In this document: positions 2,052 to 14,136 of the stretch, piece after piece | Layout: every line of letters starts with the position of its first letter | Numbering within the stretch: position 1 is the first letter of the stretch | Origin: Polyangiaceae bacterium | GTDB lineage: Bacteria > Myxococcota_A > Polyangia > Polyangiales > Polyangiaceae | Reading direction: 5' to 3' | Length of the DNA stretch: 64,000 nt | Assembly (NCBI GenBank): GCA_016933275.1 | Contig: JAFGBI010000246.1 | Span: forward strand, 1 to 64,000 | Notes under the pieces: model-generated | Databases searched by the model: none | What the model was told of the DNA's origin: nothing | The model's input: the letters and a program-made list of their open reading frames with translations, nothing else | Made by a program: the position numbers and the translations under genes

Positions 2052-5000
2052 ATGCTAGACCGCGCGGTTGCGTCAGTTCTCTTTTTGAGCGCACTTGCTC
2101 TGACACAGGGTTGCACCATCACGTCTGGCGAGCCGGGCGAGCCGGACGAGACGGGCGGCACCGGCGCCGCCGCACCCGATGACACGGGAGGCCGGCCCTC
2201 GGGCGAGGCGGGCAGCCCCTCGGGTGAGGCGGGTAGCCCGTCGGGAGAAGCGGGCAACCCCGCCGGAGGAACGGCCGACCCCTCGGGTACGGCAGGCAAC
2301 CCCTCGGGTACGGCGGGCAACCCCGGTGGCGGTCCGTCGGGTGACGCCGGCAGTCCCACTGCCGGCGCGGGCGGGACGCGCGCGGGCGCGACGCTCCGTC
2401 CGCCACTCGGTCCGTTGGACGATGGCACGGGAGGCAGCGACGAGGTGGTTGCGCCCGAGGACGGGCCTGCCGTCGATGAGCTGTCCCGGGCCGCAGTGCG
2501 GATCATCCAGGAAGCGGACATCGTCCAGTTCAGTGGCAATCGACTGTACGCGATCTCCCGTGTCGGTGGCCTGTCGATCATCGACGTAGAAACCCGCGAT
2601 CGGTTGCGACTACTGGGCCTCTACCGCCTGCCCGAGGTCACGCCGTTCGAGATGTTCATTCGCGGCGAGAGGGTCATCGTCCTGTTCACCGGTGTCCCCG
2701 TCTACGACCCCGAAACCTATACCAACGAGACGACCAGCCGCGTGGTAGCACTCAACGTCGCGGATCCAGCCAACATCGTCGCGACCGACGAATTCGACGT
2801 TCCCGGCGAGATCTCCGACTCTCGGATCGTCGGCAACGCCCTCTACCTCGTCTCGTACAAGAATGAGCATTGCTACGACTGCGACCGGGTGGAAACCTCA
2901 GTCACGTCGCTCGACATCTCCAATCTCGGCGACATCGTCGAGGTCGAGCAATTGGCCTTTCCCGAAACCGAAGCGGGCTCCGGAAGCTACTCCCAGCGCA
3001 GCGTCACCGTGACTACGGACCGGATGTACGTCGGCGGGATTGGCGACACCGGCTACGATGGATCTGAAATCCAGGTGGTCGACATCTCGAGCCCAAGCGG
3101 CGACATGACCCTGGGCGACACTGTCGAAGTCGAGGGGAGTATCCTGAGCCGTTGGCAGATGGACGAGTACAATGGAGTGCTGCGCGTCGTCAGTCAGCCT
3201 CAATGGGACTCGTCGCAGCCACCGGTCATCCAGACCTTCCAGATCGACTCATCCACCAACCTGACACCACTGGGTCGAACGGAGATGGAGATCCCGGAAG
3301 GCGAGGACCTGCGCAGCGTGCGCTTCGACGACGATCGAGCCTACGCCATCACCTTCTTCGAGACCGATCCGCTCTTCACCATCGACCTCTCGGATCCAGC
3401 CAACCCACGTCAGGCGGGCGAACTGGAGATGCCTGGCTGGATCTACCATATGGAGCCCCGCGGCAACTTCATGCTGGGGCTGGGCTTCGACAACACGAAC
3501 GACGAAGGCTCGCTCAACGTGACGCTGATCGATGTGTCGGACATCGACCACCCTGCGTTGCTCGACCGGGCAAACTTCGGGGGGTCGTGGGCCAAGATCT
3601 CCGAGGATCAGAACCGCGTCCACAAGCTGTTCAACGTCGAGGACGAACTGGGGCTCGTCTTCGTGCCCTACAGCGGGTACACGAGCGGATGCGGGTCCTA
3701 CACGAGCGGCATCCAGATCATCGAGTACGACACGACGTCCTTGACCCTGCGCGGAGTCGCCCCTCAGGTCGGCACCGCGCGGCGCGCGAGGATCTACGAC
3801 GAGCGTCTGTTCGGCGTGTCCGAGGAACGGGTGCAGGTGTTCGACCTCGGTGATCTGGACCGCCCGGTAGAAACGGCGTCGCTTCCCCTGGTGCACCGCG
3901 TGCATCGCACCATCCCGGTCGGCGCGAAGGTGCTGCGGGTTCGCTCGGACTGGTGGACGCAGAGCGGCCAGGCGGATCTCACGACCCTTGAGGAGGTCGA
4001 GTCTCCTATGGTCGGCGAGCAGTTGAATCTGTCGGCCGCGCTCTACGACGAGGCCACCGAGGACAACGCCTGCGACTACTACGACTACGACTTCATCAGG
4101 AACGCGCCAGCGTTCGCCTTCGGGTCGCACGTCGCGATGGTCGTGTCACATCACGACGTCGAAGGCTCCGTCACCGACATCCTGGTCCTCGACACGAGCG
4201 GCGACGTGCCCGCGGTTTCTGCCAAGCTGCGGCTCGACTTCCCGCTGCGGGTCACGGATCTCGGTCCGAACGTGGTGCAGGTTCGAGACTCCCTGGTCCT
4301 GCTCCGCGCAGGCGCGGCGAGCGGTGAGTTGGTCGAGAACGTGGTCGAGGTCGTGGATCTGAGCGACCCGACGAGTCCGCACCGACTCTCCCCGATCGAA
4401 CGAGCCGCCGCCTGGGGGACGACCGGCTTCTACGTGGACGGCACCGATGTGCTGCTCGGGTACTATGACACCAGCGGACCGGACGACACCCTGATGTTCT
4501 TCGTCGATCGAATAGGCATCGAAGATCCCTCGGACCCCGACGTGAGCGAACCGTTGAGCATCCCTGGTCTCCTGTTGGGTCCGACGGGGGAGCACCTGTT
4601 GACGGTCGATTTCGCCGACGTGGTGGTGAACGGCGTCTCATGGACGACCTGCTACTACGAGTACGGCGGGCAGTGGGAAAGCGAGGACGAAACCTGCGCC
4701 TACAGCGAGCGGACCCTCAAGCTCGTGTCGCAAGCGGGAGCGGCGCTGTCAGAGCAGGTTCTCGATTCCAACCTGCAGCTTGCCGCGATCCATCGGGGTG
4801 AGGATCGCTCATTCCTGCCAGCGGTCGTCTACGCCGACTACTCGGAGAAGATGCTCATCGTGGGGGCGGATGGGGACGAACTCACGACCAACCTCATCGA
4901 TCTGGACGCGCGTCCCTTCTCCTCGCAGCCCGTCGGTTCGAGTCTCTACTTCTTGAAGGGGGGGGAGTTTACCCTCCTCGACGCGACGAACGTCGCGGAT

Positions 5001-5120
5001 CCGACGGAAACCGCAATTCAAGCCCTATACTCGACCAATCCCAATCACCTGGCGTTGACCAGCACGCATGCGGTCGTGGCCCTGGACGACTACGGCGTGC
5101 AGCTGATCGAGCTTCCATGA
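2052..5120 (+). CDS. Secreted beta-propeller lipoprotein
   Basis: About 1022 residues. A signal peptide ends in lipobox LTQGC (Cys21), followed by a low-complexity linker built of SGEAGS/SGTAGN units (about residues 25-120). The rest is beta-propeller: repeated blade-like segments such as GNRLYAISRVGGLSIIDV, NALYLVSYKN and GRTEMEIPEGEDLRSVRFDD, in the style of the secreted 'beta propeller domain' (PF09826/LVIVD-like) proteins. Several Cys pairs (HCYDCD, TSGCGSY, TTCYYEYG) suit an oxidising compartment. ATG at 2052 is preceded by AAGGGG about seven bases upstream; GTG at 2049 is the alternative. It is the first of six closely spaced genes for exported proteins, so it probably acts as a surface scaffold or binding protein with them. 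The ligand is unknown. Confidence 0.82.
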   Translation: MLDRAVASVLFLSALALTQGCTITSGEPGEPDETGGTGAAAPDDTGGRPSGEAGSPSGEAGSPSGEAGNPAGGTADPSGTAGNPSGTAGNPGGGPSGDAGSPTAGAGGTRAGATLRPPLGPLDDGTGGSDEVVAPEDGPAVDELSRAAVRIIQEADIVQFSGNRLYAISRVGGLSIIDVETRDRLRLLGLYRLPEVTPFEMFIRGERVIVLFTGVPVYDPETYTNETTSRVVALNVADPANIVATDEFDVPGEISDSRIVGNALYLVSYKNEHCYDCDRVETSVTSLDISNLGDIVEVEQLAFPETEAGSGSYSQRSVTVTTDRMYVGGIGDTGYDGSEIQVVDISSPSGDMTLGDTVEVEGSILSRWQMDEYNGVLRVVSQPQWDSSQPPVIQTFQIDSSTNLTPLGRTEMEIPEGEDLRSVRFDDDRAYAITFFETDPLFTIDLSDPANPRQAGELEMPGWIYHMEPRGNFMLGLGFDNTNDEGSLNVTLIDVSDIDHPALLDRANFGGSWAKISEDQNRVHKLFNVEDELGLVFVPYSGYTSGCGSYTSGIQIIEYDTTSLTLRGVAPQVGTARRARIYDERLFGVSEERVQVFDLGDLDRPVETASLPLVHRVHRTIPVGAKVLRVRSDWWTQSGQADLTTLEEVESPMVGEQLNLSAALYDEATEDNACDYYDYDFIRNAPAFAFGSHVAMVVSHHDVEGSVTDILVLDTSGDVPAVSAKLRLDFPLRVTDLGPNVVQVRDSLVLLRAGAASGELVENVVEVVDLSDPTSPHRLSPIERAAAWGTTGFYVDGTDVLLGYYDTSGPDDTLMFFVDRIGIEDPSDPDVSEPLSIPGLLLGPTGEHLLTVDFADVVVNGVSWTTCYYEYGGQWESEDETCAYSERTLKLVSQAGAALSEQVLDSNLQLAAIHRGEDRSFLPAVVYADYSEKMLIVGADGDELTTNLIDLDARPFSSQPVGSSLYFLKGGEFTLLDATNVADPTETAIQALYSTNPNHLALTSTHAVVALDDYGVQLIELP

Positions 5121-5136
5121 GGTAGGAACCGGTCCC

Positions 5137-5772
5137 ATGCGAAACGCCATCTCCGCGCTCCTCGTCCTCGTGGCAGCCCTCCTGGCGTGCAAGCAGCCCA
5201 GCTCCGATCGGAAGACCCACGACGACGCCGATCCACGCCCCGCCGCCAAGCCGGAGTCCGCCGTCGAGACGGCGTCCGCGGCCGTGGCAGCGGCGGACCA
5301 GACGACGGAGGGGTCGGGGTCGCAGGACGGCGGGGACGCGCCAGCCACACCCGCGAGCGCAGCGGTTGCCCCGCCGACAGGAGCGCCGGGGTCGACCGCC
5401 GCGCTCGTCCCAGCTACCGCGTCGCCCGGGTCAGGTCTCGCGAAGACCAGCGCCGGTACGACTGCCACCGCCACCGCCGCGGCAACCGCGCGTCCCCCCG
5501 CCACCGCCGCGGCAACCGCGCGTCCCACCGCCACGGCCACAGCGACCGCGCGTCCCACCGCCACCGCCGCGGCGACCGCGCGTCCCACCGCCACGGCCAC
5601 GGCGACCGCGCGTCCCACCGCCACGGCCACAGCGGCCGTTTCGACCACCAAGCCGCCCAAGACGCGACCGGGGTTCCTCAGTCCGGGACTGTCTGGCTCC
5701 GATCGATCCGGGGGGTCCGACTCGAGCCGTCGCCGGACGACGGATGCGCCCACACGCCCTGGAGCCGAATAG
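5137..5772 (+). CDS. Lipoprotein with Thr/Ala decapeptide repeats
   Basis: The product starts MRNAISALLVLVAALLAC, a classical lipoprotein signal (Cys18). Most of the mature chain is low complexity; residues about 108-165 are five copies of a ten-residue unit of the type ATARPTATAT, encoded by a 30-bp tandem repeat. The tail is Ser/Arg/Gly rich. No enzymatic domain is seen. A Thr/Ala/Pro-rich rod like this could serve as an extended, possibly glycosylated stalk, but that is inference. It sits 16 bases after the propeller gene and its TAG is directly followed by the ATG of the protease gene, so it belongs to the same transcript. Copy number of the 30-bp repeat may vary between strains. Confidence 0.72.
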   Translation: MRNAISALLVLVAALLACKQPSSDRKTHDDADPRPAAKPESAVETASAAVAAADQTTEGSGSQDGGDAPATPASAAVAPPTGAPGSTAALVPATASPGSGLAKTSAGTTATATAAATARPPATAAATARPTATATATARPTATAAATARPTATATATARPTATATAAVSTTKPPKTRPGFLSPGLSGSDRSGGSDSSRRRTTDAPTRPGAE

Positions 5773-8448
5773 ATGTGGTACCGCGCAGACCCTGCCCCCA
5801 ACCGGAAATGCCACTGGGTGAGGTTCGCCACCTCGGTCGCCGTGCTCTTGGGCCTAGTCGTGGACGGATGCGCGATCGTCGAAACCGACCCCGATGGGGA
5901 GGATGGGACGACCGGCACGGGCGGCAGGGAGACGCCGGCGACTGGTGGGATGGAAGCCGGTGGAGAGGCTAGCGTCGGTGGCGTCAGCGCTGGGGCCAAC
6001 GGGAACCAGGCCGGCTCGGTCGAAGATGGGGGCGGCCGCCACCAGGCAGGCTCGACCGGCACTGGGGGTAGCGGGAACGAGGCGGGTTCAGTCGGCGCTG
6101 GGGGCAGCAGCAACGAGGCGGGCTCCCTCGGGTGTGGGGGAGTCACCGAAGCGGGTACCTGCGACGGCACGGAGCTCGTCGTCTGCCAGGATGACACCCT
6201 GACCCGGATCGATTGCGCCCAGGTGGGGGCCTTGTGCAGGCTCGGGCCTGACGGTGCGGAGTGTGCCGACCTGAGTCGCGCGACGATGGCGTGTGGCACG
6301 CTCACCGAATTGGGCACCTGCGAGGAAGGTGAGCTCCTCCGCTATTGCGACACCACGGGCCTGGTCGAGAGCGCCCAAACGATCAACTGTGCGGCCTACG
6401 GTCGGCTCTGCGACCCCACGGCGGCGAGCGACGGAGGTGCGGCCTGTGTTTCTCATGGCCCCTGCGGCGAAGTCGACGAGAACGGGACGTGCGCGGGAAA
6501 CGAGCTGCGCTTCTGCGAGGAGGGTGAGCTCTTCGTCTTCGACTGTGGGGTGGACGAGTGCCGCGTCGTGGGAGGCTTCGCCGACTGTTTCCTCCCTGGC
6601 GTCACCGATGGCTGCGGAACCGAGACGGCCGGAGGGCGGTGCGACGGCAACGTCCACGTGAGCTGTCTGGGTGGCGTGGTCACCAGGGAGGAATGTGACA
6701 CCCTCGGCCTCGAGTGTCAGTCGGCAGCAGAGAGTGCCGGATGTGAGCGAGGGACTGCGTGCCCCGCCGCATGCCCAGGTGGAACAAGCTGCGACGGTGG
6801 ACTCTGTGTCCCCGAATCGGCCGCCAGTCGCGCCTGGACCGTGATGGTCTACATGGTCGGGGACAACAACCTGTCGGACGCGGCCTACCTGGATCTCGCA
6901 GAGATGGAGGCCGTAGGATCGACCGATGATGTGCAGATCGTCTCCCAGGTCGAGTTCTCCCAGGTCTTCTCGCTGCTGACGCCGAGCGAGTATCGAGCAG
7001 ATACCTACCGAGTCGCCATTGCCGCCGATGGCGACGACACGGCGGTGGGGAGCTTGGCAGATGCCGAGTCGTTGGGGGACGTCGACATGGCCGACCCCGC
7101 GACGCTGGAGGGCTTCCTCCGTTGGGCGGTGGAGACCTACCCGGCGCAGCGCACGGCGTTGGTCTTCTGGGACCACGGCGAGGGCTACAAGGGGGGATTT
7201 TTCGACAGCACCGCCGACCGCACCATGAGCATCCGGGACATGATCGATGGCGTGCGCGAGGCCGGGGTGCACCTCGATCTGTTGGCGTTCGATGCCTGTC
7301 TGATGGGGATGCACGAGATCGCCTATGGGTTCCGCGGCTTCGCGAACGTCATGGTGGCATCGGAGGAGACGGTGCCCGGGACGGGGTTCCCATACGAGTC
7401 CATCCTAACGAATCTGACGGCGAGCCCCGGGATGACCGCAATGGAGCTCGGGGCCCAGGTGGTGCAAGACTACACCGACCACTACTCGGTCGGGCTGCGG
7501 GCCCGGTCGGTGACGATGGCGACGTTGGATCTCGGCAAGGCGAAGGCTCTCAATGAGGAGCTGGCAAGCTTCGCTCGGACCGTGGGCGACGACCTCGCCT
7601 CCCATCGGGCCGCCGTCCAGTCGGCGCTCCGAGCCGATACCACACTCCGCTTCACCGACCCCGACTCCGCCGATGTCTTGGGAGCGCTGGCGTCGTTCGG
7701 AGTCATCGAGGGAGACATCGGGACCGCCGCAAACGATCTCGCGTCGTTCATCGGGACCGAGGGGATCATCATGACGAGCCAGGCGACGGGCATCGTCGAG
7801 GCCGCGACGGGACTGGCGCTCTACCTCCCCGAGAATGCCTTCAGTGCCTACACGACAGGGACGTTCGAGGACTACCGTAGCCGGACGAGCTTCCTCCCGC
7901 TCGAGCCCTGGCACGCGCTCGTGGCGCGGCTCACCAACGACACCGACACCGGCGGTGCCCCCGTCTCGGGCGATGCCGCTGACACCTTCAGTCTCGTTCT
8001 CTCGTGGGCAAGCGAGCCCGATGGTGTCGAGTCGGAGGCCGACCTGGATCTCTATGTCTACGAGCCCAACGGAGATTTCGCGACGCCGCCCAACGGCACG
8101 ACGAGCACGAACGGCATGCTCTCGGCCGACTCCTACGATTCGGGGGTCCCACGCGAGTCCTATGACCTCAAAGCGGATCACCAGAGTGGTCGCTACATCG
8201 TTCTGGTGCACTTCTATTCGGGTCCCGAGGGAGAGCAGGCCTACCCGCGGCTCCAGGTCATCCAGCCCGATCTGACGGGTGGCAGCCGCACGCTGCTGCG
8301 CGGCAAGGTCGAGGAACACGAACTCTTGGAGTACCCGATGGACAGCTCGGTGCCGCTCGTCACGACCATCGACGAAGGCAACGTGCAGCAGGTGTACGAC
8401 CTCGATTTCTCGGACATCTGGTGGGCGGTCAACATCGAGGTCCGATGA
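5773..8448 (+). CDS. Clostripain-family (C11) cysteine protease lipoprotein
   Basis: 891 residues. The N-terminus is a lipoprotein signal (lipobox VVDGC, Cys33) and a Gly/Ser/Ala linker, followed by several Cys-rich modules (about 115-345) of the pattern GTCxGxELxxCxxGxLxxxDC. Residues about 355-720 match peptidase family C11: WTVMVYMVGDNNLSD opens the domain, VFWDHGEGYKGGFF carries the candidate catalytic His and LLAFDACLMGMHEIA the catalytic Cys. A C-terminal beta domain (about 725-890, with SEADLDLYVYEPNGDF) resembles bacterial prepeptidase C-terminal or YfaP-like modules. Family members cleave after Arg/Lys and often self-activate. Being lipidated, it should act at the outer surface or periplasm, perhaps processing its operon partners. 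Both catalytic residues look intact. Confidence 0.9.
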   Translation: MWYRADPAPNRKCHWVRFATSVAVLLGLVVDGCAIVETDPDGEDGTTGTGGRETPATGGMEAGGEASVGGVSAGANGNQAGSVEDGGGRHQAGSTGTGGSGNEAGSVGAGGSSNEAGSLGCGGVTEAGTCDGTELVVCQDDTLTRIDCAQVGALCRLGPDGAECADLSRATMACGTLTELGTCEEGELLRYCDTTGLVESAQTINCAAYGRLCDPTAASDGGAACVSHGPCGEVDENGTCAGNELRFCEEGELFVFDCGVDECRVVGGFADCFLPGVTDGCGTETAGGRCDGNVHVSCLGGVVTREECDTLGLECQSAAESAGCERGTACPAACPGGTSCDGGLCVPESAASRAWTVMVYMVGDNNLSDAAYLDLAEMEAVGSTDDVQIVSQVEFSQVFSLLTPSEYRADTYRVAIAADGDDTAVGSLADAESLGDVDMADPATLEGFLRWAVETYPAQRTALVFWDHGEGYKGGFFDSTADRTMSIRDMIDGVREAGVHLDLLAFDACLMGMHEIAYGFRGFANVMVASEETVPGTGFPYESILTNLTASPGMTAMELGAQVVQDYTDHYSVGLRARSVTMATLDLGKAKALNEELASFARTVGDDLASHRAAVQSALRADTTLRFTDPDSADVLGALASFGVIEGDIGTAANDLASFIGTEGIIMTSQATGIVEAATGLALYLPENAFSAYTTGTFEDYRSRTSFLPLEPWHALVARLTNDTDTGGAPVSGDAADTFSLVLSWASEPDGVESEADLDLYVYEPNGDFATPPNGTTSTNGMLSADSYDSGVPRESYDLKADHQSGRYIVLVHFYSGPEGEQAYPRLQVIQPDLTGGSRTLLRGKVEEHELLEYPMDSSVPLVTTIDEGNVQQVYDLDFSDIWWAVNIEVR

Positions 8449-8939
8449 TCCAGCGGGGGAAATGGTCACCGTGCTGGGCGCTTCTGGCGGCTGGAGCCGC
8501 GTGCCAGTCGGGAGTGAAGAGCGGCAGCGGGGCTGTGTCGGCCCAGCCCGCCCCGGAGGGTGCCGTGGAACCGGTGGCGCTCGCATCGGCGACGATGCAG
8601 CCGCCATTGGCCGCGAGAGCCCCGGACGGGGCGGCGGCCACACCCCCTGCATCGGTAGCCGGGGCGCGGTCCGCCCAAGTAGGGACGGACGTCGTGGTGA
8701 CAGGGCTCTTCCTCGGCTGGAAAGGGCCGTGCAAAGGGGTTCCCCCATCACGCTCGGCCTGGCATCTGGCGGATGGCGCTGCCGCCGACGCTCCTTGTCT
8801 CTACGTGGACGGAAGGCTGCCAGACGGCGCCAGCGCGACCAACCCTCCCGCAGGTTTTCGGGTGACGGTGACCGGACGGGTCCGCGCGAGCGACTCGGGC
8901 CGATTCCTGGAGGCGTCTGCCGTGGAGCGAGCGCCGTGA
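8445..8939 (+). CDS. Small lipoprotein, possible OB-fold
   Basis: The ATG at 8445 overlaps the stop of the protease gene (ATGA), indicating translational coupling. The product starts MIQRGKWSPCWALLAAGAAC, a lipoprotein signal with Cys20. After an Ala/Pro-rich linker, residues about 80-164 form a compact beta domain (VGTDVVVTGLFLGWKGPC, FRVTVTGRVRASDSGRFLEA). This order of strands, including a VTVTGRV strand, is reminiscent of small OB-fold or BOF-like periplasmic domains, but the match is only by eye. Two Cys could form a disulfide. Function unknown; the coupling argues for a role with the protease. Confidence 0.68.
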   Translation: MIQRGKWSPCWALLAAGAACQSGVKSGSGAVSAQPAPEGAVEPVALASATMQPPLAARAPDGAAATPPASVAGARSAQVGTDVVVTGLFLGWKGPCKGVPPSRSAWHLADGAAADAPCLYVDGRLPDGASATNPPAGFRVTVTGRVRASDSGRFLEASAVERAP

Positions 8940-9496
8940 AGGCTCGCATCCTCGGTGGTGGCGGCGCCGGCGTGCTCCTACTGGCGGGGGGCATCTGGTG
9001 GCTGTCGCCTTCCTGGACAGACGGCGCCGCGAAGAAGGGGGCGACGGGCGCGGACGGATCGCGGTCTACTCCGACCGTCGGCTCGCGTCCGTCCGACCCT
9101 CCCGCGCCCGTGGCGCCTGCCGCCCGCGCCACGCGCGGACGAACGGCGGTGGATCGCGCGCCCGAGACCCGAGTCCGGGGGCCCCGAACGAGCCTCTTCA
9201 ACGAGCCCCCACGCGGCGGCCCGTTCGAACGCGCGCTGGTTTCGCCATCGATGGTGGCGATGAGCGGGGGAAACCTCGAGCGGCTCCGTGATGCCACCGC
9301 TCGTTCCGAGGATCGCGCGACGCGGGCGGGCCGCCTCGATGGGCGGCTCGCCGCTCGCCTCGCTGCCCTCCGCACCGATCCCGCCGCGGATCGCGAAGTC
9401 ATCGCAACGCTCGAGAGGAATCTCGCCCGGCGCCGCACGCTGGAGAAACGAACGGCGCCGTCGCCGTCCGCTCGCCGCACGCGGTGGGCGGACTAA
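8936..9496 (+). CDS. Membrane-anchored protein with helical C-terminus
   Basis: GTG at 8936 overlaps the preceding stop (GTGA). The 186-residue product begins with a short positively charged end and one hydrophobic segment (ILGGGGAGVLLLAGGIWWL), probably a non-cleaved anchor. It continues with a Pro/Ala/Arg-rich linker and an Arg/Glu/Ala-rich C-terminus (residues about 105-186, e.g. LARRRTLEKR) likely to be helical or coiled. No family recognised. Its position between two lipoprotein genes and the stop/start overlap make it part of the surface-protein operon; it could be a factor that docks the others to the membrane. Confidence 0.62.
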   Translation: MKARILGGGGAGVLLLAGGIWWLSPSWTDGAAKKGATGADGSRSTPTVGSRPSDPPAPVAPAARATRGRTAVDRAPETRVRGPRTSLFNEPPRGGPFERALVSPSMVAMSGGNLERLRDATARSEDRATRAGRLDGRLAARLAALRTDPAADREVIATLERNLARRRTLEKRTAPSPSARRTRWAD

Positions 9497-9529
9497 TTCC
9501 CTTGGCGACTCGTGAGAGGAGATGGATTG

Positions 9530-10582
9530 ATGTCAAATGGCAGGATCTCTGGGTGGATGGCGATGGCGCTGACCCTCGCTGCTGCTTCTGCATGCACCAT
9601 CGAGAGCAGCGACTGCAGCGACTGCGACTGCAGCAACTGCGACGGCGATGACGAAACCGGCGGGCGCGCGAGCGGGCAACCCTCGACCGGAGGCGCGCAA
9701 CCTTCGGACGGTGGGGAAGGCAACCCCGCCACCGGAGGCCGGACCCCGAGCCAGAACCGCGGAGGCCAAGGTGGCGTGGTCGAGCCCTCGCGGGGCGGCG
9801 AAGGTGGAGTCTCCGCATCACGGGCTGGCGCCGGCGGGGAAGGCAACGCCATCGAACCCTCGAGCGGGGGCGAGGGCGGGGTCCCCGCGGCGCACGCTGG
9901 CGCCGGCGGAGAAGGCAACGCCGGCCCCTGCTACCTCGACTACGAGCTCTGCGACAACGGCGTCGATGACGACTGCAATGGTGCCGAGGACGAAGTCCCC
10001 TGTCGTGAAGTGGACGCGTGCTCCTACGACGGCACCGAGCTGCCCACCGAGCAAGGGTGGGAGTATGCCGCGGTGGGGATGGAGACGGCGGACGTCGAAG
10101 TGGACATCACCGATGGGGTACTCCACGTAAGCGATGATTCGACTTCGTCCGGTTCGCACTTGGGATGGGGGCGAGACTGCTTTGGCTCGATCGATCCCGG
10201 CTACGTCTACGTGGCGGAGTTCCGCGTGCGGGCGGTGAGCGCCACCGCGCAGGGTGGCTTCCGCCTCGGACTCGGCGATGGCATGAACCTCCTCGATCTC
10301 TCCTTGTTCCCCGACGATCTCCTCGTTGGGGGCTCCCTGGGGTGCGACCAGACGACGGTCAGCGAAGACCTCGCCTCCGAGTTCGCGACCATTCGCCTGG
10401 AGCTACAGAGTGACGCCGGTACAGATGCCGTCTCCACCTTCGTCGATGGTGCGCTCGTGAATGAATCCACGACGACCTGCACGGCCTCCCAGTGGGAGGT
10501 TTCCTTTGGGATGTTCTCCACCGACGGCACCGGCGAAGGCTACGTGGACGACGTCCGGGCATGGCGCGAACGACGCCAGTAG
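9530..10582 (+). CDS. MopE-like metal-binding lipoprotein with C-terminal beta domain
   Basis: ATG at 9530 is preceded by AGAGGAG eight bases upstream. The signal ends in lipobox AASAC (Cys22), followed directly by a dense Cys cluster (SSDCSDCDCSNCDGDD) and a Gly/Glu-rich linker. Residues about 145-160 read CDNGVDDDCNGAEDE, the acidic Cys motif of MopE-type putative metal-binding repeats (here a single copy). The C-terminal 170 residues form a beta sandwich with a concanavalin/laminin-G flavour (FRVRAVSATAQGGFRLGLGD, VSFGMFSTDGTGEGYVDDV). It is the last gene of the block starting at 2052. Metal binding follows from the motif; the lectin-like role of the end domain is inference. Confidence 0.74.
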   Translation: MSNGRISGWMAMALTLAAASACTIESSDCSDCDCSNCDGDDETGGRASGQPSTGGAQPSDGGEGNPATGGRTPSQNRGGQGGVVEPSRGGEGGVSASRAGAGGEGNAIEPSSGGEGGVPAAHAGAGGEGNAGPCYLDYELCDNGVDDDCNGAEDEVPCREVDACSYDGTELPTEQGWEYAAVGMETADVEVDITDGVLHVSDDSTSSGSHLGWGRDCFGSIDPGYVYVAEFRVRAVSATAQGGFRLGLGDGMNLLDLSLFPDDLLVGGSLGCDQTTVSEDLASEFATIRLELQSDAGTDAVSTFVDGALVNESTTTCTASQWEVSFGMFSTDGTGEGYVDDVRAWRERRQ

Positions 10583-10639
10583 CGACGGCCGGTAGCCTGA
10601 CTTGGAATTGCCTCACCGGCGCGCGCCGCTTGGGCTGGG

Positions 10640-11165
10640 GTAAAAAACCCGGTTTGGCCCGACAGCCCACGTCGGTCGTGCGTCCGTTCACGTCGAGCGG
10701 TTTCTCGTCCAAGTCCGAGTCACCGAAACCGTTGCTTCCGAGAAAGTGGAGCCACTGGCCGAGGGCGGCACGCTCGGCGTCCGTCAACGCGGCGATCGGG
10801 TTCGTGGGCTCCAGGGTAGGCTGGGGCACGAATCGTTCGTCGCCGCCCTCGCCGCCGGCGGGGAGGTAGATCCAGGCGGGCTCGTCGGCGGCGCTGCGCT
10901 CGCCGTCCTGGCAGGACTCCCCGCGATGACCAGAGCCGGAGGCGCCCTCCTCGGGGGTGATCTCCTGGCACCAGCTCGTCGGCACCTCTTACGCCTTCGC
11001 ACGCCCAGAACGACCGCCCTGTCTTGTCCTGCAGCGTCCACACGCAAGGCACACTCCGATCCCTGTCGGCTGGCGGTGTCCGCGTCGTGGCGTCGGCCTC
11101 CGTGCGTGAGATCGCGGGGAGCCGCGGACGCGGGCACGGAGGACACCCGTGCGTGGTTCATCGCG
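10640..11165 (-). pseudogene. Frameshifted remnant of an unknown gene
   Basis: Reading leftward, one frame gives a plausible coding stretch CVWTLQDKTGRSFWACEG (about 10985-11050), after which the sense moves to a neighbouring frame with PTSWCQEITPEEGASGSG, DEPAWIYLPAGGEGGDERFV and ALTDAERAALGQWLHFLG (about 10690-10985). Neither frame makes sense across the whole interval, and a single-base slip near 10985 would join them. The composite looks like a secreted Cys-containing protein of perhaps 130 residues. I recognise no family. It is followed to the right by repeat A, as decayed genes in this window often are. Confidence 0.4.
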
Positions 11166-11201
11166 TTGCACGCCGATGCCGGAGCGCCTTCCGAGAAGCC
11201 G

Positions 11202-11519
11202 CCTAGAGCAGCAATCAGGTTGATTGCTGCGTCAAGTCAACAACCCAAGCCGGCGGGGCCGGAACCAAACAGGCCAGGCCATCAGCGGTCAGCGATCAGG
11301 TAGAACGTGGAGACCCGGATCGCTGACGCCTGATTGCTGATAGCCACGAGAACATTGAGAGATCTTCTGCCGGATCCGGTCAAGATCACACCGCCAAGGG
11401 CCTAGAGCACCGGACCGGCAGCAGACCTCTCCAGAGGCAGCGCTGGAAATGCGTCCTCGCCTCGCACAAACGCGTTTCCAGCGCTGCCGTTGCTGTCGGC
11501 AATCTGATCGGTGCTCTAG
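11202..11519. repeat. Repeat A, copy 1 (interrupted by repeat B)
   Basis: Starts with a 10-bp-arm hairpin, GCAGCAATCA/TGATTGCTGC around GGT (11208-11230), and ends with a 118-bp imperfect palindrome (11402-11519) bounded by CTAGAGCACCG and CGGTGCTCTAG. Inside the palindrome GGCAGCGCTGGAAA pairs with TTTCCAGCGCTGCC. The two halves, adjacent in other copies, are here separated by about 165 bp of repeat B. The last bases, CTCTAG, supply the stop codon of the SET-domain gene on the minus strand. The shape (short, palindromic, no ORF, several dispersed copies) is that of a MITE- or REP-like element. Confidence 0.9.
11233..11398 (+). repeat. Repeat B, copy 1 (nested in repeat A)
   Basis: About 165 bp running from CCAAGCCGGCGGGGCCGGA to GATCACACCGCCAAGGG. 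It contains short alternating words (CAGCGGTCAGCGATCAGG, GATCGCTGACGCCTGATTGC). The same sequence is present in opposite orientation at 26230-26396, in diverged form at 47697-47872, and in part at 40972-41032. Its position between the two halves of a repeat A copy shows that B arrived later. No ORF is seen. Confidence 0.88.
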
Positions 11520-12100
11520 AGCAGACGTGCCCGCATCTTGGCCAGCGTGTGCAGGACGTTGCCCTTCGCCTGCTCCTGCCCTATCTGGCGGAGGAATTCG
11601 AAGTAGTCGGCGAGCTTCTTGCGAAAGCGCTCACCTTCGAGCGTGTCCGCTTCCGCGTGGCGGGCCTCCTCGTCGCTCACGTCGAAATTGATGAAGCCGC
11701 GGCAGTTCGTGGCGCCACAGCGGCAGGGGTCGCGTTCCGGCTGGTTTCGGGTCACCCAGCCATAGAAGGTGGTGATCTCCTGTTGCGGGACGATCGTGCG
11801 CAGACACTCGATGCGGCCGTCGCCTCTCGAATAGACGGTCGCGTTCGGGCGGCAGCTGTGGTTACAGAGCCAGCCGCCCGGCACGCTGGTATCGGGGACG
11901 ATCACCGTCCCGTCGTCGGAGAGGAGGGTCACCTTGGTCTGCGCGGCGAGCCGAGACTCGAAGCTCCAGACGTCAACGCGGCGCTGCTTCGGTGCGTAGG
12001 GGACGATCACGTCGCCCGGCTCGAAGCGCCGAAGCGCGAACACTCCGCGTCCCTCGATGGCGCCATCGCGAAAGGCGACCTTGGCGACGGTGTACTTCAT
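11516..12100 (-). CDS. SET-domain protein methyltransferase
   Basis: 194 residues, about the size of a stand-alone SET domain. GRGVFALRRFEPGDVIVPY opens the domain; GGWLCNHSCRPNATVY contains the NHSCxPN signature that shapes the S-adenosylmethionine and active site; a post-SET-like Cys cluster follows (DPCRCGATNCRGFINFD). SET enzymes methylate lysine side chains of proteins; bacterial examples act on ribosomal or nucleoid proteins, but the target here cannot be read. ATG at 12100 is chosen over TTG at 12112 because GAAGAAG precedes it. The final Leu-Leu-stop is written by CTGCTCTAG, the last bases coming from repeat A, so the original C-terminus may have been a little different. Confidence 0.86.
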   Translation of the reverse strand: MKYTVAKVAFRDGAIEGRGVFALRRFEPGDVIVPYAPKQRRVDVWSFESRLAAQTKVTLLSDDGTVIVPDTSVPGGWLCNHSCRPNATVYSRGDGRIECLRTIVPQQEITTFYGWVTRNQPERDPCRCGATNCRGFINFDVSDEEARHAEADTLEGERFRKKLADYFEFLRQIGQEQAKGNVLHTLAKMRARLL

Positions 12101-12149
12101 GCGCTTCTTCAATGTCCGGATTTTAGCCCCGGTCGCGTCCTACCTCCAC

Positions 12150-12654
12150 TCCCAAGTGCTGTCGCGACAGGGACGGGCCTTGGCTCGTGGGGTCAGCCCG
12201 CCCCCCGCATAGAACCCGGCGTGCGCGACTACTGCACCGGGCTCCCACCTCGGGTCTTGGCGCGGAAACGCTGGTCAGGCCAGGGATGCTGCGTGCGGAC
12301 CGGTGGAAGCCGGCGAAGCGAGAGCCGATTGATCCGCCGCCAGTTCAGGCAGCACCGTTGACTGCGTTGCCGCAGCTGCCGATGCCAGAGACGACTGATC
12401 TCGGATCGGAAGCGGGCGAGGGCGCGGACGTTCGGCGCGACGGCATGAGAGGCGAGGTAGCCGCGGAGCATTTGCCCGAGCCACTTCCCCTGCGCTGACA
12501 CGGGATCGTGGCGGTGCCGCACCATCTGCCGTTTGACAGCGTGCAGCGTCGCTCGCATCCGCGCCGGCTCCGTGCATCGAAAGGCGTCCCATCGCCCGTT
12601 CCGCTTCCTGCTCCACCAATGCGTGAACCCGACGCGAGCGAAGCGGCGTGGCTC
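12150..12654 (-). pseudogene. Group II intron maturase, 3' fragment
   Basis: The minus strand encodes the C-terminal part of a group II intron reverse transcriptase/maturase: RRFARVGFTHWWSRKRNGRW (FLGFTH-type motif), MRATLHAVKRQMVRHRHDPV, GKWLGQMLRGYLASHAVA, FRSEISRLWHRQLRQRSQRC, and the terminal PPVRTQHPWPDQRFRAKTRG. The reading frame ends at 12229; bases 12150-12228 (GGTTCTATGCGGGGGGCGG on the minus strand) look like the intron 3' region. The reverse transcriptase domain is missing and mgtE begins 88 bp to the right. A 5'-truncated copy is what incomplete reverse transcription leaves, so this is probably a dead insertion. Confidence 0.8.
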
Positions 12655-12741
12655 GAGCGATCCGCTCGGCGAACGACGGTCCCACGCCGGGCCAACCGGA
12701 GACCTCTTCGCTCCGATGGCGATGGATGGTACCGCAGGCGA

Positions 12742-14136
12742 ATGCACCTGGCGCGCCTCATTGGCCCCGAGCTCGAAACGCTGCTCGCCGAGGAGCCCTC
12801 GGCGGTCCGTGCGTTGCTGGATGAGATCCACCCAGAGGACATCGCCGATTTGGTGGACGCCCTCGACGACCAGCGCGCTGGCCAGCTCCTGGCGGAGCTT
12901 CCGGTGCGCTATGCAGGGCAGGTCTTCGCGCGCCTCGACCAGGAGCGCCAGCTCGAACTCACGGCGCTCATGGGCGTGGCCCGCACCTCTCGCATCGCGG
13001 TCGAGATGGAGGGCGACGACCGCGCCGACTTCGTCCGCGCCCTGCCAGCCACCGTAGGGGCGGCACTCCTCCGCGAGCTCGAACGGTCCAATCCGGAGGT
13101 CGCCAGGGAGGTGGAGTCCCTGGCTCGGTGGCCCGAGAGCTCCGCCGGTGGCCTGATGACGCCGGAGTATTGGGCGGTCGGCCCCGAGGTTACGGTCGGC
13201 GACGCGCTGCTCGAGATCCGGCGCAACGCCGAGGCCCCCGAGGTGCTGGACGTCATCTACGTCGTGGACCAGGCCGACCACCTGAGCGGTCAACTCACCA
13301 TTCGCGACGCCGTGATCCGCGATCCGGACACACCGATCGCTCAGGTGATGCGCCACAACGTCATCTCCGTACCACCGGAGATGGACCAGGAAGAGGTCGC
13401 TCGCATCATCGGCAAGTACGACCTGAGCTGTCTGCCGGTAGTCGATGCGGAGGGTCGAATGCTCGGACTCGTCACCACCGATGACATCATCGACGTGTTG
13501 CGGGAGGAGGCGGACGAGGATGCGCAGCGGATGGGCGGGATTCGGCCCATCGAAGACACGTATTTCAACGTCTCCTTCGGCACCTTCATCCTCAAGCGCG
13601 CCCCGTGGGTCCTGGTCCTCTTTATCGGGGGCTTCCTCACGGCAATGGCGATGGAAGCCTTCGATCGGGTCCTGAGCGTGGTGACCCAGATTGCGTTTTA
13701 CATCCCCATGCTCATCTCGGCGGGCGGCAACACCGGCTCGCAGTCCTCAACGCTGATCATCCGCTCGCTCGCCGTGGGTGACGTGACGCTTCGGGACTGG
13801 TGGCGGGTGTTGCTCCGCGAACTCGCCATAGGCCTGACGCTGGGCGGGATCCTGGCCGCGGTCGGCGTCACCCGGGTGCTCGTGGGTGGTTCCGACCTGG
13901 GCATGGCCGCCTTGATCGGCATAACGGTCACGTCCATCGTCGTCATCGGATGCCTCATCGGATCGATGATGCCGCTGGTTCTCCACCGGTTGGGGGTAGA
14001 TCCCGCCACCAGCTCGACCCCCTTCATCGCCACCATCATCGACGTGCTCGGCGTCGTCATCTACCTCGGCCTCGCCCAGTGGATTCTGGCTGACGTGCTC
14101 GCTCGCGCCGCGCTCGGACTCGAACCGTCCCTTTGA
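12742..14136 (+). CDS. mgtE: Magnesium transporter MgtE
   Basis: 464 residues in the expected order: an N-terminal helical domain with FVRALPATVGAALLRELE and VAREVESLARWPESSAGGLMTPEY, a CBS pair (about 140-265, with PVVDAEGRMLGLVTTDDIID), then five membrane helices. SAGGNTGSQSSTLIIRSLA is the pore signature of the family. MgtE is a dimeric Mg2+ channel gated by Mg2+ binding to the N and CBS domains. ATG at 12742 is the natural start. The upstream 88 bp abut the group II intron remnant, so the original promoter may have been displaced. Downstream is repeat C. Confidence 0.95.
   Translation: MHLARLIGPELETLLAEEPSAVRALLDEIHPEDIADLVDALDDQRAGQLLAELPVRYAGQVFARLDQERQLELTALMGVARTSRIAVEMEGDDRADFVRALPATVGAALLRELERSNPEVAREVESLARWPESSAGGLMTPEYWAVGPEVTVGDALLEIRRNAEAPEVLDVIYVVDQADHLSGQLTIRDAVIRDPDTPIAQVMRHNVISVPPEMDQEEVARIIGKYDLSCLPVVDAEGRMLGLVTTDDIIDVLREEADEDAQRMGGIRPIEDTYFNVSFGTFILKRAPWVLVLFIGGFLTAMAMEAFDRVLSVVTQIAFYIPMLISAGGNTGSQSSTLIIRSLAVGDVTLRDWWRVLLRELAIGLTLGGILAAVGVTRVLVGGSDLGMAALIGITVTSIVVIGCLIGSMMPLVLHRLGVDPATSSTPFIATIIDVLGVVIYLGLAQWILADVLARAALGLEPSL

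Follow-up and report, generated by a model that had tools for sequence, protein, structure and literature searches.

Four consecutive plus-strand genes (genes 2–5; positions 5137–9496) in DNA from Polyangiaceae bacterium (assembly GCA_016933275.1, contig JAFGBI010000246.1) are, judged from their sequences, a real, rare and partly conserved operon, narrower than the unit proposed by a first-pass annotation of the same 64,000-nt stretch (hereafter the window). With moderate confidence, we assign them to one operon for an envelope C11 protease and its dedicated partners, with the propeller lipoprotein encoded by gene 1 as a putative facultative partner at the surface and gene 6 as a bystander. 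Gene order, coupling signals, the conserved active site, the OB-fold prediction and co-inheritance form the basis of this assignment, and from them we infer the surface location, partner binding, regulation and substrates of the unit, as well as a joint function. Three protein families without a Pfam match accompany one C11 protease and are on that account direct candidate regulators or anchors. To our knowledge, few native inhibitors of the C11 family have been described. The comparison also shows which neighbour can be dropped, namely the MopE-like gene.

Layout of the block

ORF calling in the window confirmed six plus-strand reading frames at 2052–10582, joined by the three tight junctions that had been described. 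The gaps from gene 1 to gene 6 are +16, 0, −4, −4 and then +15, which becomes +33 with the ATG at 9530 as the start of gene 6. Genes 2 and 3 abut (TAG/ATG at 5770–5775), genes 3 and 4 overlap in an ATGA at 8445, and genes 4 and 5 overlap in a GTGA at 8936. The claim that all products are exported also held, as each of the six carries a predicted export signal or membrane anchor; in genes 1, 2, 3, 4 and 6 this is a signal peptide with a Cys behind the hydrophobic stretch (all read by eye). A Pfam search of the block matched PF09826 in gene 1 (E 8e-64) and PF03415 in gene 3 (E 2e-42), and returned no family for genes 2, 4, 5 and 6. Spurious ORFs are possible at 67% GC, but genes 2, 4 and 5 are more than chance ORFs because they align with syntenic homologues at z-scores of 12.5, 23.9 and 9.9, respectively, against shuffled sequences.

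The upstream border of the block is a divergent minus-strand lipoprotein gene (1–1460), which runs off the window start, has one minus frame open and contains a (TAGNGG)n linker. By eye, its product resembles arylsulfotransferase-like proteins. Downstream, the block is bordered by a minus-strand ORF (11516–12112) that appears SET-domain-like, again by eye.

The protease and its candidate partners

Gene 3 (5773–8448, plus strand) encodes an 891-aa C11 (clostripain-type) protease lipoprotein, which scores 146.6 bits against PF03415, above the cut-off of 25.8. The protein comprises a Gly-rich linker, Cys-rich repeats (about residues 120–345), the C11 domain (359–613) and a beta-rich C-terminal region (about 735–891), for which the single-sequence structure model was poor (pLDDT 50). 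Aligned with the structures of clostripain and related C11 enzymes (9cip, 6n9j), His468 and Cys509 fall on the catalytic His/Cys dyad. The dyad and the active-site residues are invariant in three full copies, one in the window and two in G027, a genome from another genus of the Polyangiaceae, confirming the annotation of a protease with intact His and Cys. Asp507 lies two residues ahead of the catalytic Cys509 (FDAC); in PmC11, Asp177, two residues ahead of Cys179, is the S1 residue (PMC4850288). Because His468, Asp507 and Cys509 align with clostripain/PmC11-type enzymes, basic P1 specificity is expected for gene 3, so that the protease would cut after Arg or Lys with Asp507 in the S1 position. 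R483 lies near the position of the PmC11 autocleavage site, where two homologues have no Lys or Arg. Since the three homologues do not share this residue, activation of gene 3 may differ from that of PmC11. Once exported and lipid-anchored, the protease would be exposed on the surface, displaying its Cys-rich repeats along with the caspase-like C11 domain that holds the His468/Cys509 dyad.

Gene 2 (5137–5772, plus strand) encodes a 211-aa Ala/Thr-rich repeat lipoprotein, the rod, with a conserved C-terminus (KxRPGFLSPGL...DAPTRPGAE). Its homologue in G027 is a 234-aa lipoprotein with Lys/Thr/Asp repeats, encoded directly upstream of a C11 gene. The repeats of the two rods differ (TSTKKDDK in G027 versus TATARP in the window), whereas their tails are near-identical (SRPTDAPTRPGAK in G027 versus RRTTDAPTRPGAE in the window; z 15.9 over the last 45 aa) and share the end motif DAPTRPGA[EK] in both genera. 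The rod could act as a lipidated low-complexity stalk, with its invariant tail DAPTRPGA docking the protease or another partner.

The 164-aa small lipoprotein of gene 4 (8445–8939, plus strand) contains a predicted OB domain at about residues 72–164 (GWKGPC...RSAW...CLYVDG). Its AF2 single-sequence model has five strands (pLDDT 67, pTM 0.61), and among the Foldseek matches shown for it almost all were OB-fold proteins, with a best E of 1.2e-3 and none below 1e-3. The predicted model matched the bacterial OB-fold protein YgiW with a TM-score of 0.65, and a sequence search of the PDB returned nothing significant for gene 4. An OB fold is therefore likely on the strength of the model. Gene 5 (8936–9496, plus strand) encodes a 186-aa transmembrane (TM) helical protein, with an N-terminal TM segment, a Pro-rich linker, a C-terminal helical segment and no lipobox. 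Apart from weak partial matches, homologues of gene 4 (2 of 108 genomes) and gene 5 (2 of 318) occur only beside a C11 of the window type.

Coupled translation would tie production of the OB-fold lipoprotein and of the TM helical protein to that of the protease. The most likely role of these two is to bind the protease and either regulate its activity or retain it in the envelope, comparable to that of the small beta-barrel inhibitors that share a transcript with secreted cysteine proteases of other kinds in bacteria. Both dedicated partners are probably regulatory. A bolder version, which we regard as unlikely, would place the C11 protease on the stalk via the conserved C-terminal peptide, held in check by the OB-fold lipoprotein as an inhibitor; this would be the first inhibitor-coupled C11 system.

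Conservation in relatives and alternative readings

The C11 protein was searched for in 59 relatives, 108 genomes of the family, 184 of the order and a phylum sample of 379. At full length it occurs in 2 of the 184 genomes of the order. G027 has two copies, which share 48–50% identity with the window protein and 63% with one another. A further homologue in G399 lacks its N-terminal part at a contig end and has an intact dyad. Other C11 proteins of the order have mainly the catalytic domain in common with gene 3, and a scan of the genome contigs found C11 domains only in other architectures. With composition correction switched off, tblastn searches for genes 2 and 6 produced numerous low-complexity matches, which were disregarded.

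At G027 locus A, rod, C11 protease, small lipoprotein and TM helical protein are adjacent and in the same order as in the window, with gaps of +2, −11 and −4 compared with 0, −4 and −4. Identity with the window counterparts is 46–48% for the C11 protease and the small lipoprotein (46% between the latter and gene 4), and 39% between the TM helical protein and gene 5. The locus spans two contigs: C292 starts inside the repeat protein upstream of the C11 gene, and C30 ends in the same rod repeat. The contigs overlap by 76 exact bases, and joining them completes the rod. As the join rests on a repeat, it is likely, not certain, that they form one locus. At locus B (C397), a propeller gene is followed directly by the paralogous C11 gene and then by one for a Cys-rich MYXO-CTERM-type protein; the rod, OB and TM helical genes are all missing there. 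The Cys-rich protein (about 10270–11625), which contains (D)5 repeats and ends in a MYXO-CTERM-like tail, occupies the place after C11 where locus A has the OB and TM helical genes. Neither of these genes adjoins the C11 homologue in G399. The C11 proteins of C397 and G399, with intact dyads and no such neighbours, indicate that some proteases of this kind do without the partners in cis.

The neighbourhood proposed for the block thus recurs in relatives in part. Genes 2–5 form a core of conserved order and a propeller adjoins C11 at the second G027 locus, but a unit of six genes had to be rejected, as gene 6 has no orthologue among the 59 relatives and the propeller is solitary in most of them. 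In favour of the four-gene operon, order and overlapping or abutting junctions are kept across genera and the rod tail is near-identical. Against it, the unit was found in two genomes only, and synteny rests on one comparison at about 50% divergence. A consensus search for promoter-like sites found none, so that co-transcription of genes 2–5 stays putative.

Gene 1 (2052–5120, plus strand) encodes a 1022-aa propeller lipoprotein. Two stretches, together spanning about residues 150–601, match PF09826 (216.7 bits, above the cut-off of 22.4) and precede a long C-terminal part. In a tree of 27 propellers, gene 1 and the C397 propeller are sisters with support of 100/100. About 23 other loci with a long propeller have no C11 of the window kind nearby, a count to be read with the caveat that several contigs end close to the propeller gene. 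On these grounds we rejected the propeller as an obligatory partner of C11; where linked to it, the propeller might serve in substrate capture or as a scaffold on the same surface. The window's genome also encodes a second C11-domain lipoprotein (G000:C400, 7303–8952); at its N-terminus (MLDRTVAANRMR) it is similar to the propeller of gene 1 (MLDRAVASVLF).

Gene 6 (9530–10582, plus strand; ORF 9512–10582) encodes a lipoprotein with a Gly-rich linker and a C-terminal beta-rich domain; the ATG at 9530, preceded by GGAG, is its more likely start. It holds one MopE-like motif, CDNGVDDDCNGAEDE, and gave no match to PF11617 even at E 10; 26 PF11617 matches lie elsewhere in the window's genome. Among the 59 relatives, only two weak partial matches to gene 6 were found, and its sequence search of the PDB returned nothing significant. 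Because it has no orthologue there and its motif falls below PF11617 reporting, gene 6 is probably a neighbour outside the unit.

Some of these results would also be expected if the block were a chance cluster of the lineage's abundant exported lipoproteins around an ordinary digestive surface protease, with neighbours of unrelated roles. These genomes are rich in propeller and MopE-like proteins, the propeller usually stands alone and gene 6 lacks an orthologue. We nevertheless consider such a cluster unlikely, since genes 2–5 are found only together, keep their order and junction type across genera, and the propellers linked to C11 make up a clade of their own. The window protease could instead activate an effector or toxin encoded elsewhere, as fragipain and DpnB do with toxins from other loci, with the small downstream proteins protecting the producer. 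This is rather less probable, as no candidate substrate emerged and the Pfam search found no toxin domain in the block. Least probable is the original proposal that the protease matures the other five products after export while the propeller and the MopE-like protein build a metal-linked surface structure: all products are predicted to be exported or anchored, and maturation of neighbours is plausible by analogy because C11 lipoproteins, as in Bacteroides, process secreted proteins (PMC11169675, PMC8406203), but the metal-linked structure was rejected as gene 6 has no MopE family match, is absent from G027 loci A and B, and has no His or Trp in its motif, unlike the MopE copper site of His132, His203 and a kynurenine from oxidised Trp130 (PMC3423442), and the propeller lacks a C11 in most relatives.

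Further genes adjoin the G027 core. A gene resembling those for formylglycine-generating enzymes (C30, reverse-complement 12173–13135) lies about 356 bases upstream of the locus A rod, where no propeller is present; near the locus on its other side, C292 encodes a radical SAM protein like anaerobic sulfatase-maturating enzymes (11429–12541, plus strand). If the arylsulfotransferase-like gene that borders the block in the window is taken into account, these neighbours may hint at a sulfation theme, or may be there by chance.

Comparison with known systems

The window protease is a new form of fragipain-type C11 lipoprotein. With fragipain and DpnB, surface lipoproteins of Bacteroidales, it shares the C11 His/Cys dyad, a lipoprotein signal and the expected basic P1 preference. 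It differs from them in its Cys-rich repeats, its extra C-terminal beta-rich region, its phylum and its operon with rod, OB-fold and TM helical proteins. Clostripain of Clostridium histolyticum and PmC11 have the same C11 catalytic core and Asp-Ala-Cys with the S1 Asp, but gene 3 scores far below the cut-off of the clostripain equivalog TIGR02806 (47 bits versus 550) and the basic residue of the activation loop is not conserved in the three homologues.

The gene 1 propeller belongs to the same family as the PF09826 propellers of the order, in a long form (~1000 aa) with two matched stretches; those of the order mostly stand alone, whereas gene 1 and the C397 propeller are linked to a C11 gene. 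With MopE from Methylococcus capsulatus, gene 6 shares a single motif of the DDDCNG type; it differs from MopE in falling below PF11617 reporting and in lacking recognisable copper-site residues.

In Bacteroides, small lipoprotein inhibitors are co-transcribed with C10 proteases (PMC3462683). As in the C10-Bti and staphopain-staphostatin pairs, gene 4 would supply a small beta-barrel (predicted here) whose gene directly follows, and is coupled to, that of a secreted cysteine protease, and some of these inhibitors are, like gene 4, lipoproteins. The C10 and C47 proteases are papain-like, unlike C11, and staphostatins are lipocalin-like, whereas the prediction for gene 4 is an OB fold. With the C11 genes of G027 locus B and G399 lacking an adjoining small partner, the parallel is one of analogy only, and it is as such that it would cast gene 4 as a candidate inhibitor.
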